From Pleurocapsa sp. MO_226.B13 (GTDB lineage: Bacteria; Cyanobacteriota; Cyanobacteriia; Cyanobacteriales; Xenococcaceae): 18,975 nucleotides of DNA. The notes under the pieces are model-generated. The model had not been told where the DNA came from and did no database searches. It saw nothing but the letters and a program-made list of their open reading frames with translations. Each line of letters begins with the position of its first letter. Position 1 is the first letter of the stretch. The translations under genes and the position numbers were made by a program. The stretch is from NCBI GenBank assembly GCA_030064795.1, contig JASJEI010000283.1, positions 1 through 18,975 of the forward strand, given 5' to 3'. Positions 1 to 18,975 of the stretch are shown in pieces.

Positions 1-516
1 GACACCACTTTTCAAAACATGGAGGCAAGGATTCGAGGGATATTTCTTTCACGAGCGATTCTGGGTCTAATTCAAGTACAAGTATTACTAGGTAGTTATT
101 TTAGCCGATTTCCTCGATCGCATTCCCAAAGTCCAGTTACTCCCAATGATCTATCTACTTCAGAACAATTTGTCATTGGTGGGGCGCAGTCGGTTCGCGG
201 TTATCGTCAAAATGCTCGTCTCGGTGAAAATGGATTGCGTCTATCTATCGAAGATAGGATTACACTAATTAAAAATCAAGAAAATACTCCCCTATTACAA
301 ATTGCTCCTTTTGCCGATTTTGGTATAGTTTGGGGTGACTCTACCGAAGATACTGAAGATAATTTTCTGGCAGGTATTGGCTTAGGATTAATTGCCGAAC
401 CAATTTCGGGTTTAAGTCTTCGCCTTGACTATGCACCACCACTAGTTAATCTAGATGACACTGGGGATAACGTTCAAGAAGATGGTTTCTATTTTCGTAT
501 TGGCTATCGTAATTAA
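1..516 (+). CDS. TpsB/BamA-superfamily outer membrane protein, C-terminal part (5' truncated by window)
   Basis: This is the C-terminal part of an outer-membrane beta-barrel of the ShlB/FhaC/HecB type, which translocates partner proteins across the outer membrane. The visible signature is EQFVIGG followed by SVRGYRQN, the Omp85/TpsB barrel-plug motif. After it come alternating beta strands (LQIAPFADFGIVWG, FLAGIGLGL, LRLDYAPPLV) and a C-terminal strand ending FYFRIGYRN, close to the family's usual barrel end. The frame is open to base 1, so no start is visible; the ATG at 19 is unlikely to be real because the family is usually about 500-600 residues. Residues before about base 130 (frame 1) do not resemble the family, and a better-looking stretch (FLDRIPK) is in another frame around 105-128, so a frameshift or rearrangement near CCCAAAG is possible. 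It reads toward a transposon-end-like sequence and could be cargo. Confidence 0.75.
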   Translation, partial: DTTFQNMEARIRGIFLSRAILGLIQVQVLLGSYFSRFPRSHSQSPVTPNDLSTSEQFVIGGAQSVRGYRQNARLGENGLRLSIEDRITLIKNQENTPLLQIAPFADFGIVWGDSTEDTEDNFLAGIGLGLIAEPISGLSLRLDYAPPLVNLDDTGDNVQEDGFYFRIGYRN

Positions 517-849
517 ATCAAATTATTAATTTTTGTTCGAGGATGCTGTGAATAGCTTAAAAGACAGAGGCACAGAGGCTTTCAACATCGCTTTTCGGTA
601 AATACTCCTTCCTGTACCCGATCCTTGAATTGTTGGTATGACAACCTCTTTCTCACGTCAATACTCTAATTAGTAAATAGATACTACTATCTTAGATAGT
701 CACAGTCGTAACATATTGCAAATCTCAAATCTGAGCGGCATTCAATTTGTTAAAGCGACAGTAATTTGTTACCGATGACAAATAAAGTGTTAATGTACAT
801 GGGAGATTTTTTTAAGCTCGCTTAAATAATATTGAATATTGTCTATAAA
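517..849. other. Gene-free spacer between TpsB end and tRNA-Thr
   Basis: No coding sequence is evident. The right half holds the transposon-end-like repeats (737-799, listed separately), a short palindrome ACTATCT-T-AGATAGT (686-700) and a 7-bp hairpin TTTAAGC/GCTTAAA (811-826) between the TGTACA edge and the tRNA 3' end. The left half (517-680) shows nothing recognisable. Confidence 0.6.
737..799 (-). mobile_element. Tn7/Tn5053-like (type V-K CAST-like) transposon end next to tRNA-Thr
   Basis: Read on the minus strand from base 799 leftward, the sequence starts with TGTACA and continues into three 17-bp direct repeats at 793-777, 773-757 and 753-737. The period is exactly 20 bp. Each unit follows the pattern TAACA, then 7 AT-rich bases, then TGTC (TGCC in the third). 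From memory, the left end of type V-K CRISPR-associated transposons such as ShCAST begins TGTACA and carries TGACA...TGTC repeats at the same 20-bp spacing as TnsB sites; the terminal bases and repeats here agree closely. The end sits about 50 bp from the 3' end of tRNA-Thr, and such elements home beside tRNA genes. No tnsB, tnsC, tniQ or cas12k is visible, so it is either a decayed or solo end, or the edge of an element extending beyond base 1. Other Tn7-like families remain possible. Confidence 0.6.
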
Positions 850-921
850 AGCTCTCGGCGGGATTTGAACCCGCGATCTCTCCCTTACCAAGGGAGTGCT
901 TTACCCCTAAGCCACGAGAGC
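850..921 (-). tRNA. tRNA-Thr(GGT)
   Basis: A complete cloverleaf reads on the minus strand. The acceptor stem GCTCTCG/CGAGAGC has 7 pairs, the D stem is GCTT/AAGC, and the anticodon stem CTCCC/GGGAG encloses the loop TTGGTAA with anticodon GGT. The T arm is GCGGG-TTCAAAT-CCCGC and the discriminator is T. CCA is not encoded. The anticodon lies at 887-889 on the plus strand (acc). The T-loop supplies a GTT triplet (870-868 on the minus strand) pointing toward the TGTACA edge at 799. Confidence 0.96.
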
Positions 922-12518: not shown

Positions 12519-14474
12519 ATGATTAATCTGCTTATAGTAGAAGACCAGAAGACAATTTTACAGCTTTTAAAAAGCTATTTAGAGCGAGAATCAGACTTGA
12601 GGATTGTGGGAATTGCTGCTGATGGTCAAACAGCGATCGCCAAAGTAGAACGTTTAAGACCAGATGTGGTGTTGATGGATGTGGAAATGCCTGGAATAGA
12701 TGGGATCGCAGCTACTCGAACTATTTCTCAACGCCATCCAGAAGTAAAAGTACTAATTTTAACTACTCACGATGACGATCGCGTCCTCAACTATGCCTTG
12801 CAAGCTGGAGCGAAAGGATATTTGCTCAAGAATACTCCTCCTAGAGAACTAATCGACTTTATCCGCTCGGTTTATCGAGGACATTTACAGCTGGACTCTG
12901 GTTTAGTCCAGAAGTTACCACAAGAGCAATACTCTCAACTCCATCAAGAAAACTCGAACGGACAGGAAATTTTTAGTCAGAAAACTTCAAAATTTCCTTA
13001 CTTTTTGCTGGGAATTATCCTTAATACTTGTGTGTGGTTAGTAGCGATCGCTTACTGGAAATTAGTACCGCCTCAATATACCAGTGAATGGGGATTTAAA
13101 ATTTTGGGCAAAGGAACGGGAGTAGAATTAAATTTACCTACTATTGGTAAGGCATCATCTGGTACTGGTTCTGGTAAAAGTAGTGATGACACCAGGGTAG
13201 ATTATACCTATATCGCTAGCGATTCTTCTCTTTTGGAGGAAACCGCTACAGAAGTGGGAATGTCTGTTGGAGAGTTTGGCAGACCAGAAATTATTACCGA
13301 TGATGAAGGCAATATTGTCTCTTTGTCAATTGAGGGAGATACCCCTGAAGAGGCACAGAAAAAAGCTCATGCTTTTCATCATGTTTTGACCGAGAAGATT
13401 GAAAACTTGAGACAAGCTGAAATCGAACGCCAAGAACAGCATACTCAAGCTACCCTCGAAGCAGCACGTCAGAAGCTCGATTTAGCCCAAGAAAAACTTT
13501 CTGAATATCAAGTTTCATCTACCCTAAGTTCTGGGGAGCAGGTTAAGCAATTGACTAGTAATTTGGAAGAGTTATACCGTCAAAGGGCGGAGTTATCAGC
13601 CCAAGAACGGGGCTTAAGAAAAATTACTCAGCAGTTAGAGGATGAATTGAATCTATCTTCGACAGAAGCAACTTCTGCTTATCAATTACTCGACGATGAT
13701 GTTTTTCAACAACAGTTACAACAATATGCTCAACAAAGTAGAGAACTGAGTAATTTATTGTCTCGCTTTACCGAGGTAAATCCTTCAGTAATCGAAAAAC
13801 AAGCCCAGTTAGAAGAAATAACTACAGATTTACAACAAAGAGCCAGCTTTTTGCTCAATCGACCAATAAGCCAACAAGAGCTAGAAAGAATCAGCTATCT
13901 TACCCTCGATCCGAAGGTAAAAACAGTAAGACAAGAGGTTTTTAAAGATTTAATTGCCAATGAAGCCCAGGAGCAAAAATTAGAAGCGCAAATTCAAGAA
14001 TTGGAAAATCAGATGGGGCTGCTAGAAAACCGTCAAAAAAATATCACTCAAGATAAGTTGAAGATGGATAGCTTTCAGCGCGATCTACAGGTAGCAGAGG
14101 CAGTTTTTGCCACAACTTTAGCGGAATTAGATTTAGGTAAAGAATATGTCTATTCCCTTTATCCTCCAATTCAGTTAATTAAAGAGCCAAGTTTGCCTAA
14201 AGAAAATAATCCCACCAGTCCCAATCTTCGCTTGATAATGTTGGGAGGCATGGCGGGTTCTTTTCTGGTTACTACTGGCTTGATTTTGCTTTGGCTCGAA
14301 CGCCGTCCTCATGCTTATGCTACGGCATTAAACTCAGACGAAACACCTTCTTCTTCTACCTTGGATGTCAATCGCCTACAACAAGTAAACTCAAAATCCC
14401 AACGGCACAATGCCTTAAACTCTAAATCCCAACGGCACAATGCCTTAAACTCTAAATCCGATAGACATAACTAG
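12519..14474 (+). CDS. Response-regulator receiver fused to Wzz/GumC-type polysaccharide co-polymerase
   Basis: A 651-residue two-domain protein. Residues 1-125 are a complete receiver domain of NarL/LuxR style: acidic pair E8/D9, phospho-acceptor D54 in VLMDVEMPG, switch T82/T83, and K104 in GYLLKN. No HTH DNA-binding domain follows. Instead, after a linker, a first membrane span (about 159-181) leads to a Wzz-like periplasmic region with long coiled coils (about 290-380 and 470-525). The region before the second span (about 571-593) is Pro-rich (IKEPSLPKENNPTSP), as in polysaccharide co-polymerases that set glycan chain length. The tail after the second span is cytoplasmic and ends in 2.8 copies of a decapeptide. 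Cyanobacterial co-polymerases more often carry a tyrosine kinase; none is visible here. The cognate histidine kinase is not in the window. No clear Shine-Dalgarno precedes ATG 12519. Confidence 0.88.
   Translation: MINLLIVEDQKTILQLLKSYLERESDLRIVGIAADGQTAIAKVERLRPDVVLMDVEMPGIDGIAATRTISQRHPEVKVLILTTHDDDRVLNYALQAGAKGYLLKNTPPRELIDFIRSVYRGHLQLDSGLVQKLPQEQYSQLHQENSNGQEIFSQKTSKFPYFLLGIILNTCVWLVAIAYWKLVPPQYTSEWGFKILGKGTGVELNLPTIGKASSGTGSGKSSDDTRVDYTYIASDSSLLEETATEVGMSVGEFGRPEIITDDEGNIVSLSIEGDTPEEAQKKAHAFHHVLTEKIENLRQAEIERQEQHTQATLEAARQKLDLAQEKLSEYQVSSTLSSGEQVKQLTSNLEELYRQRAELSAQERGLRKITQQLEDELNLSSTEATSAYQLLDDDVFQQQLQQYAQQSRELSNLLSRFTEVNPSVIEKQAQLEEITTDLQQRASFLLNRPISQQELERISYLTLDPKVKTVRQEVFKDLIANEAQEQKLEAQIQELENQMGLLENRQKNITQDKLKMDSFQRDLQVAEAVFATTLAELDLGKEYVYSLYPPIQLIKEPSLPKENNPTSPNLRLIMLGGMAGSFLVTTGLILLWLERRPHAYATALNSDETPSSSTLDVNRLQQVNSKSQRHNALNSKSQRHNALNSKSDRHN
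14388..14474 (+). repeat. 30-bp tandem repeat encoding a decapeptide (2.8 copies)
   Basis: Units at 14388-14417, 14418-14447 and 14448-14474 (partial) are nearly identical at DNA level and encode NSKSQRHNAL, NSKSQRHNAL and NSKSDRHN. They form the extreme C-terminus of the receiver/co-polymerase protein. The low divergence suggests recent expansion by slippage or unequal crossing over. Confidence 0.9.
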
Positions 14475-18898: not shown

Positions 18899-18972
18899 GT
18901 CAGAGTAGCTCAGTTGGTTAGAGCATCGGACTCATAAGCCGAGTGTCGAGAGTTCAAGTCTCTCCTCTGACA
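18899..18972 (+). tRNA. tRNA-Met(CAT), elongator type
   Basis: A full cloverleaf is visible: acceptor GTCAGAG/CTCTGAC (7 pairs), D arm GCTC...GAGC, anticodon loop CTCATAA with CAT, T arm GAGAG-TTCAAGT-CTCTC, discriminator A. The first pair is G-C, not the C-A mismatch of initiator tRNA. The anticodon stem TCGGA/GCCGA has an A-G mismatch at its base by the loop. tRNA-Ile with a lysidine-modified CAT is the alternative. CCA is not encoded. Confidence 0.9.
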
Positions 18973-18975
18973 TTT

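Follow-up and report, generated by a model that had tools for sequence, protein, structure and literature searches.

A putative type V-K CRISPR-associated transposon left end beside a tRNA-Thr gene in Pleurocapsa sp. MO_226.B13, probably left by an element that has decayed

In an intact type V-K CRISPR-associated transposon (CAST), cas12k, the tracrRNA and the CRISPR array lie between the left end (LE) and cvkR, with a CvkR or Arc gene beside cas12k, and tnsB, tnsC and tniQ are found near the far end. The anchor spacer, i.e. a truncated repeat followed by around 17 nt of the tRNA, is situated inside the LE. The ends of ShCAST carry TGTACA, and its integration takes place around 60-66 bp from its PAM.

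Among the relatives, the element on G013:C4 (L159 7991-16439) has TGTACA at both ends, the 5-bp sequence AAACT outside both, and a tRNA-Gly gene just outside its Cas12k-side end. Its genes follow in the order TnsB-like, TnsC-like, two short ORF pieces and Cas12k. The TnsB-like protein (651 aa) matches the Pfam integrase core and Mu C-terminal domains, both below the curated cut-offs, and the TnsC-like ATPase matches AAA_22 above and TniB just below the cut-off. The two short ORF pieces look, by eye, like a broken TniQ, and Cas12k was recognised by NF038191 with 619 bits (cut-off 150).

The published V-K architecture (PMC9938897) terms the tRNA-side end the left end, places it downstream of a tRNA gene directed at the transposon, gives GTN as the PAM and reports PAM-to-LE distances of 46-82 nt, from which a single case of 147 deviates. 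The stretch of Pleurocapsa sp. MO_226.B13 DNA analysed here (contig JASJEI010000283.1, 18,975 nucleotides, referred to as the window) resembles this architecture in its spaced TnsB-site-like repeats, in an LE at which a tRNA gene is directed, in the spacing from a GTN PAM and in the orientation of cvkR, but differs from it in that the LE and cvkR do not enclose an anchor spacer, an array, a tracrRNA or cas12k, and in that cvkR is broken. The LE at tRNA-Thr belongs to a known kind of element, and the result for this locus is an ordinary one. The features are listed in Table 1.

Table 1. Features in the first 921 bp of the window, with the evidence or analogy on which each assignment is based
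Feature	Position	Strand	Remarks	Basis
Right part of a dispersed palindromic MITE-like repeat	1..139	+		96% to L152 1881-2020 and L153 5447-5585
C-terminal part of an Omp85/ShlB-type outer-membrane gene	142..516	+	Cargo or host flank	Pfam
cvkR fragment (MerR-type repressor gene), HTH region	595..681	-	In-frame stops	tblastn and CvkR HMM
Putative LE of a type V-K CAST	738..799	-	Tip at 799 (TGTACA), reads leftwards	Model R2 and blastn
Three TnsB-site-like units inside the LE	793-777, 773-757, 753-737	-	Putative TnsB binding	
Expected place of the 5-bp target duplication	800..804	.		Analogy with the G013 element (AAACT outside both ends)
tRNA-Thr(GGT)	850..921	-	Points at the LE, 50 bp from the tip	ARAGORN; Rfam RF00005, 72 bits
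Candidate anchor protospacer (the 17 nt that follow the PAM)	851..867	-		Analogy with relatives using GTT and CAAATCC...
Candidate GTN PAM, GTT in the tRNA T arm	868..870	-	68 bp to the tip	Read directly

Judged by sequence comparison, the stretch 738-799 (-) of the window is the left end of a type V-K CAST. The model R2, trained on 16 other ends with the window excluded and thus providing an independent test, matched exactly this stretch with 70.3 bits (E=2e-21); even with a limit of E=10, no further match was obtained in the window, although R2 consists of left ends and a right end could escape it. The window and the 16 relatives' ends align without gaps over 64 columns, and all 20 columns that are invariant among the 16 are retained in the window LE. 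By blastn, the window LE is 75-97% identical to the ends of relatives, which served as the comparison set instead of a curated one: the outer 60 bp reach 97% identity with the LE of G002:C290 (L154), which lies beside a tRNA-Val gene, other loci compared show 85-94% across 38-66 bp, and 75-79% was obtained for a small number of more distant ones. The similarity to relatives' ends therefore extends well beyond TGTACA, i.e. the outcome that the earlier note had named as speaking against a transposon end did not occur.

The internal features of the LE are far less telling by themselves. TGTACA, which is also present in the relatives' ends, is indeed located at 794-799, as had been noted before; it occurs once in the window, and the hexamer alone is uninformative because 2.9 copies would be expected there by chance. 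With respect to the three 17-mers described in the earlier note as having an exact 20-bp period, the positions hold and the TGTC, TGTC and TGCC ends are exactly 20 bp apart, whereas the TAACA cores are spaced by 21 and 19 bp. The summed pairwise identity of this array (793-737) is 25, compared with 28 for the best three-unit array in the window and a mean of 27.0 (range 25-31) for the best arrays of 200 window shuffles. Since the shuffles and the best window array score the same or higher, the array alone is at chance level, and its significance arises only through comparison, i.e. from the identity to G002:C290 and the R2 match. An A+T-rich stretch in which a palindromic hexamer and loosely periodic words came together by chance would explain these internal features, but has a practically negligible probability in view of the E-value of R2, for which the window was not in the training set, and of the docking next to a tRNA gene in the family's usual orientation.

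An Rfam search of positions 500-1000 returned the tRNA and two sub-threshold overlaps with that same tRNA. The GTT at 870-868 and its distance of 68 bp to the transposon edge had been read correctly. This distance lies within the published 46-82 nt. Among the 21 relatives with an anchor, the PAM-to-tip distance is 42-72 bp in 20 and 95 bp in one, the latter with an extrapolated tip; the 68 bp of the window exceed 19 of these 21 values (42-65 bp), leaving only 72 and 95 bp above, which counts against reading the end as a remnant. In the position of its GTT and tip, the window resembles four relatives in which GTT followed by CAAATCC in the same tRNA arm is used and whose tips lie 34-46 bp past the tRNA.

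V-K-like ends were counted in 27 genomes from the family of G002. Most of the ends used for model building came from these same genomes, and the census is thus not independent of the model. At least 104 matches to the end model up to E=0.01 were found in 21 of the 27 genomes. From the best 53 of them, 52 ends were classified, the match G009:C15:5872-5927 being dropped as it lies on the opposite strand beside one already counted; tips were extrapolated where matches begin inside the model, and all counts are lower bounds because 150 candidates were scored in each genome. A tRNA gene is located 2-77 bp from the tip in 37 of the 52 classified ends (the best of at least 104), and in all 37 it points at the tip; four of these genes are tRNA-Thr. 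The other 15 ends comprise six with a TnsB match inside, which we read as right ends, and nine that are unexplained.

The anchor search looked for GTN plus the adjacent 17 nt of the flank, repeated inside the element after TTGAAAG, with a maximum of 24 points. An anchor-like tRNA copy next to a GTN PAM was detected at 21 of the 52 classified ends with 18-24 points, and the remaining ends reached at most 17. Together with the 37 docked ends, this corresponds to the V-K architecture of PMC9938897. In the window, no match of 12 nt or more shared with the tRNA was found, and the best anchor candidate allowing mismatches obtained 15 points, a score reached by 42 of 100 interior shuffles (mean 14.4, maximum 17). 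In this respect the window differs from L154, the locus with the nearly identical LE, which retains a 17-nt anchor spacer identical to its own tRNA.

Of note, 25 of the tRNA-docked ends among the 52 classified have an interior of 2.9 kb or more, and in 14 of these 25 no Cas12k was detectable within the 2.9-5 kb examined, a range beyond which Cas12k may still lie; in G017:C24, for example, it starts 4.0 kb in. Eleven of the 14 are on contigs without any listed Cas12k, and the G019 chromosome carries the remaining three. Cas12k matches below the cut-off were obtained in 2 of 14 control genomes as well. G019 has three Cas12k loci, and related genomes can thus hold several elements. On G019:C1 (L199, 3024-15209), two V-K-like ends face each other at a distance of around 12 kb. 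The first follows tRNA-Thr and has Cas12k inside; the second, whose tip is degenerate or extrapolated, follows tRNA-Ser. Twelve degenerated Cas12k are mentioned for V-K CASTs in PMC9938897. These degenerated elements and the 14 LEs of the census share with the window a tRNA-docked end without a detectable working Cas12k; the window differs from them by a cvkR fragment that is joined almost directly to the LE.

This fragment was recognised in two ways. In a tblastn search, the CvkR protein of L204 matched the window at 598-669 (-) with 18 of 24 residues identical, including an in-frame stop (E=4e-8), and a CvkR profile HMM of 8 rows, 5 of them distinct, matched 595-681 (-) with 21.4 bits and an i-E of 7e-8, against E=0.028 for the next best frame. 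The match is short, i.e. 24-29 residues, which counts against the remnant reading, and a 20-residue piece of it had no match in Pfam. The name CvkR is based on the MerR domain of the L204 protein (PF13411, 7e-15), on its position, as the gene starts beside that for Cas12k in reverse orientation, and on PMC9938897; the whole L204 protein had no match in NCBIfam. Ten CvkR-like loci (11 matches) were found in the 27 genomes, seven of them with an adjoining Cas12k match. The CvkR-like fragments on G028:C165, G012:C185 and G028:C315 lie on contigs without a Cas12k match, which again counts against the remnant reading.

In the window, the cvkR match begins 131 bp inside the tip. Of four relatives in which Cas12k is largely whole, three have a corresponding distance of 2779, 3085 and 3092 bp, and in the fourth, G017:C24, it is around 5.9 kb by coordinates. 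Two relatives with a partial Cas12k and a partial cvkR have distances of 1977 and 2015 bp. The orientation of cvkR relative to the tip is the same in the window and in the five measured relatives. The 131 bp leave no room for cas12k, tracrRNA and array between the LE and cvkR. Counting inwards from the tip, the bases 64-130 are accounted for in part, which is a further point against the remnant reading. In agreement with the earlier note, which had seen no cas12k gene on the visible element side, Cas12k had no match in these 799 bp of the window, which starts inside the repeat at 1-139. By comparison with the relatives, in which it holds the anchor, array, tracrRNA and cas12k, a segment of at least about 2.7 kb is missing from its usual place.

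The cvkR fragment also bears on the type of element. Type I-B2 and I-D CASTs likewise attach at tRNA genes, as stated in PMC11406308, and the end might accordingly stem from another tRNA-targeting Tn7-like element, i.e. a type I-D or I-B2 CAST or a TniQ-only element. We regard this as highly implausible: among the 12 ends that scored higher than 55 bits in the 27 genomes, 10 have Cas12k, an anchor-like copy or both, and the cvkR fragment inside the LE of the window points to type V-K. The earlier proposal of a CAST or a relative of it integrated beside the tRNA-Thr gene is thus supported and can be narrowed to type V-K, since the relatives have the same end beside tRNA genes, in many cases enclosing Cas12k or a copy of the guide, and since the cvkR fragment lies just inside the LE of the window.

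Taken at the level of sequence, the window contains a remnant, i.e. a V-K end together with the remains of a V-K-associated gene, with the machinery missing from its usual place. It is very probable that an insertion of a type V-K CAST downstream of the tRNA-Thr gene took place in the past and that the element has since decayed. Going by the relatives and the literature, the target read by the Cas12k-guide complex was most likely the 3' portion of the tRNA, adjoining the GTT at 870-868; TnsB, TnsC and TniQ would have attached the left end at a distance of 68 bp, so that the tRNA stayed intact. Later, an internal deletion of around 2.7-3.0 kb with respect to three relatives, and of more with respect to a fourth, would have removed the anchor spacer, the CRISPR array, the tracrRNA and cas12k. 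The parts are missing and the stops are present; a single deletion is the event we infer from this. The 62-bp end would thereby have come to lie against the start region of cvkR, which itself is now a pseudogene. As guide and Cas12k are not in place, the window copy should be unable to re-target itself, and its remaining role may at most be that of a TnsB-binding end acting in trans.

The sequence to the left of the cvkR fragment would be read differently if the element were still mobile. In positions 1-513, Pfam recognised PF01103 (3.7e-13) and PF03865 (2.6e-11), and the Omp85 part is 75.5% identical over 364 bp to G007:C242 by blastn. The LE could belong to a rearranged or non-autonomous V-K element with Omp85 as cargo and its second end beyond base 1, moved in trans by TnsB, TnsC, TniQ and Cas12k of another copy. 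The good preservation of the LE, with its full set of invariant columns, would suit such an element, as would the possibility of several elements per related genome, exemplified by the three Cas12k loci of G019. Nevertheless, it is very unlikely: a second end was not found in the window, within the reach of a left-end model that might overlook a right end, the best Omp85 DNA matches (G007:C242 and G028:C124) are on contigs without a listed end, and at about 139-142 a repeat interrupts the Omp85 gene and replaces its upstream part.

Copies of this dispersed repeat were found in the window (1-139), L152 (1774-2018), L153 (5393-5585), L208 (7567-7728) and L209 (996-1184), and partial copies occur in several related genomes. 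The L152 copy is 245 bp long and has 58-nt inverted arms (1774-1831 and 1961-2018) that are 78% complementary; no inverted arms were present in L153, L208 or the window part of the repeat. An IS701-type transposase fragment adjoins the L153 copy, and an IS701 end was considered for 1-139, but was dropped in favour of a MITE-like repeat, which fits better because of the inverted arms in L152.

With regard to the surrounding locus, the DUF3386 protein of the window is 84-91% identical (best segment) to those of the six closest loci, which belong to Pleurocapsales, Pleurocapsa (two), Hyellaceae, Myxosarcina and Waterburya. No tRNA gene was found at 15 loci around the neighbouring DUF3386 gene; a nifU match lies beside DUF3386 in 11 of the 15, one of which, L001, extends just 180 bp past nifU. 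G021 and G024 have tRNA-Thr genes 97% identical to that of the window, but these sites are not comparable with it because they share no flanks. Among these non-comparable loci, i.e. the 15 DUF3386 loci and the tRNA-Thr sites of G021 and G024, no empty insertion site was found.

Two further observations concern the remainder of the window. In the stretch 18899-18975, a tRNA-Met(CAT) gene stops 3 bp short of the last base of the window and is directed outward. In relatives, four V-K ends follow a tRNA-Met gene at 2-12 bp, and two of them have anchors, with PAM distances of 62 and 64 bp; by analogy, a second docking site is possible at this gene just past the end of the window, where a tip would fall given the spacing of the relatives' tRNA-Met ends. 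The second observation is a 651-aa protein encoded at 12519-14474, which starts with a response-regulator receiver domain (PF00072) and continues with a long membrane and coiled-coil part that had no Pfam match and resembles, by eye, a polysaccharide chain-length regulator. Its neighbours encode glycosyltransferases, a sulfotransferase and a flippase-like protein.

Whether solo ends keep a function was looked at in three aligned pairs. G003 and G005 share an orthologous V-K-like end at tRNA-Asn (G003:C86:22300-27504, L288, and G005:C94:3509-8700, L287), with no Cas12k match in either genome. The pair is 92.6% identical over 5 kb, and the end reaches 77%, whereas the five remaining stretches are at 91, 94, 86, 94 and 92%; among 1009 windows of 62 bp, 5.2% show an identity as low as that of the end. 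The end is thus more diverged than its surroundings, which speaks against selection for it. Between G003 and G025, whose insertions are not necessarily of common descent, the end is 71% identical, the tRNA part 81%, the outside 51% and the inside 35-41%, figures that, taken alone, would look like those of a kept end. For G017:C12 and G019, the end is 50% identical, with an extrapolated tip. It is tempting to speculate that solo V-K LEs at tRNA genes are widespread, countable scars that outlive their transposon and perhaps stay active as TnsB-binding decoys or as immunity sites sparing the same tRNA, which we nonetheless hold to be improbable.

The main value of this locus lies in providing an example of V-K element decay, together with a count of solo ends. 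V-K transposons can leave recognisable tRNA-side ends behind after the loss of guide and Cas12k, and past RNA-guided insertions are therefore countable from such ends, which a survey starting from cas12k alone would miss.
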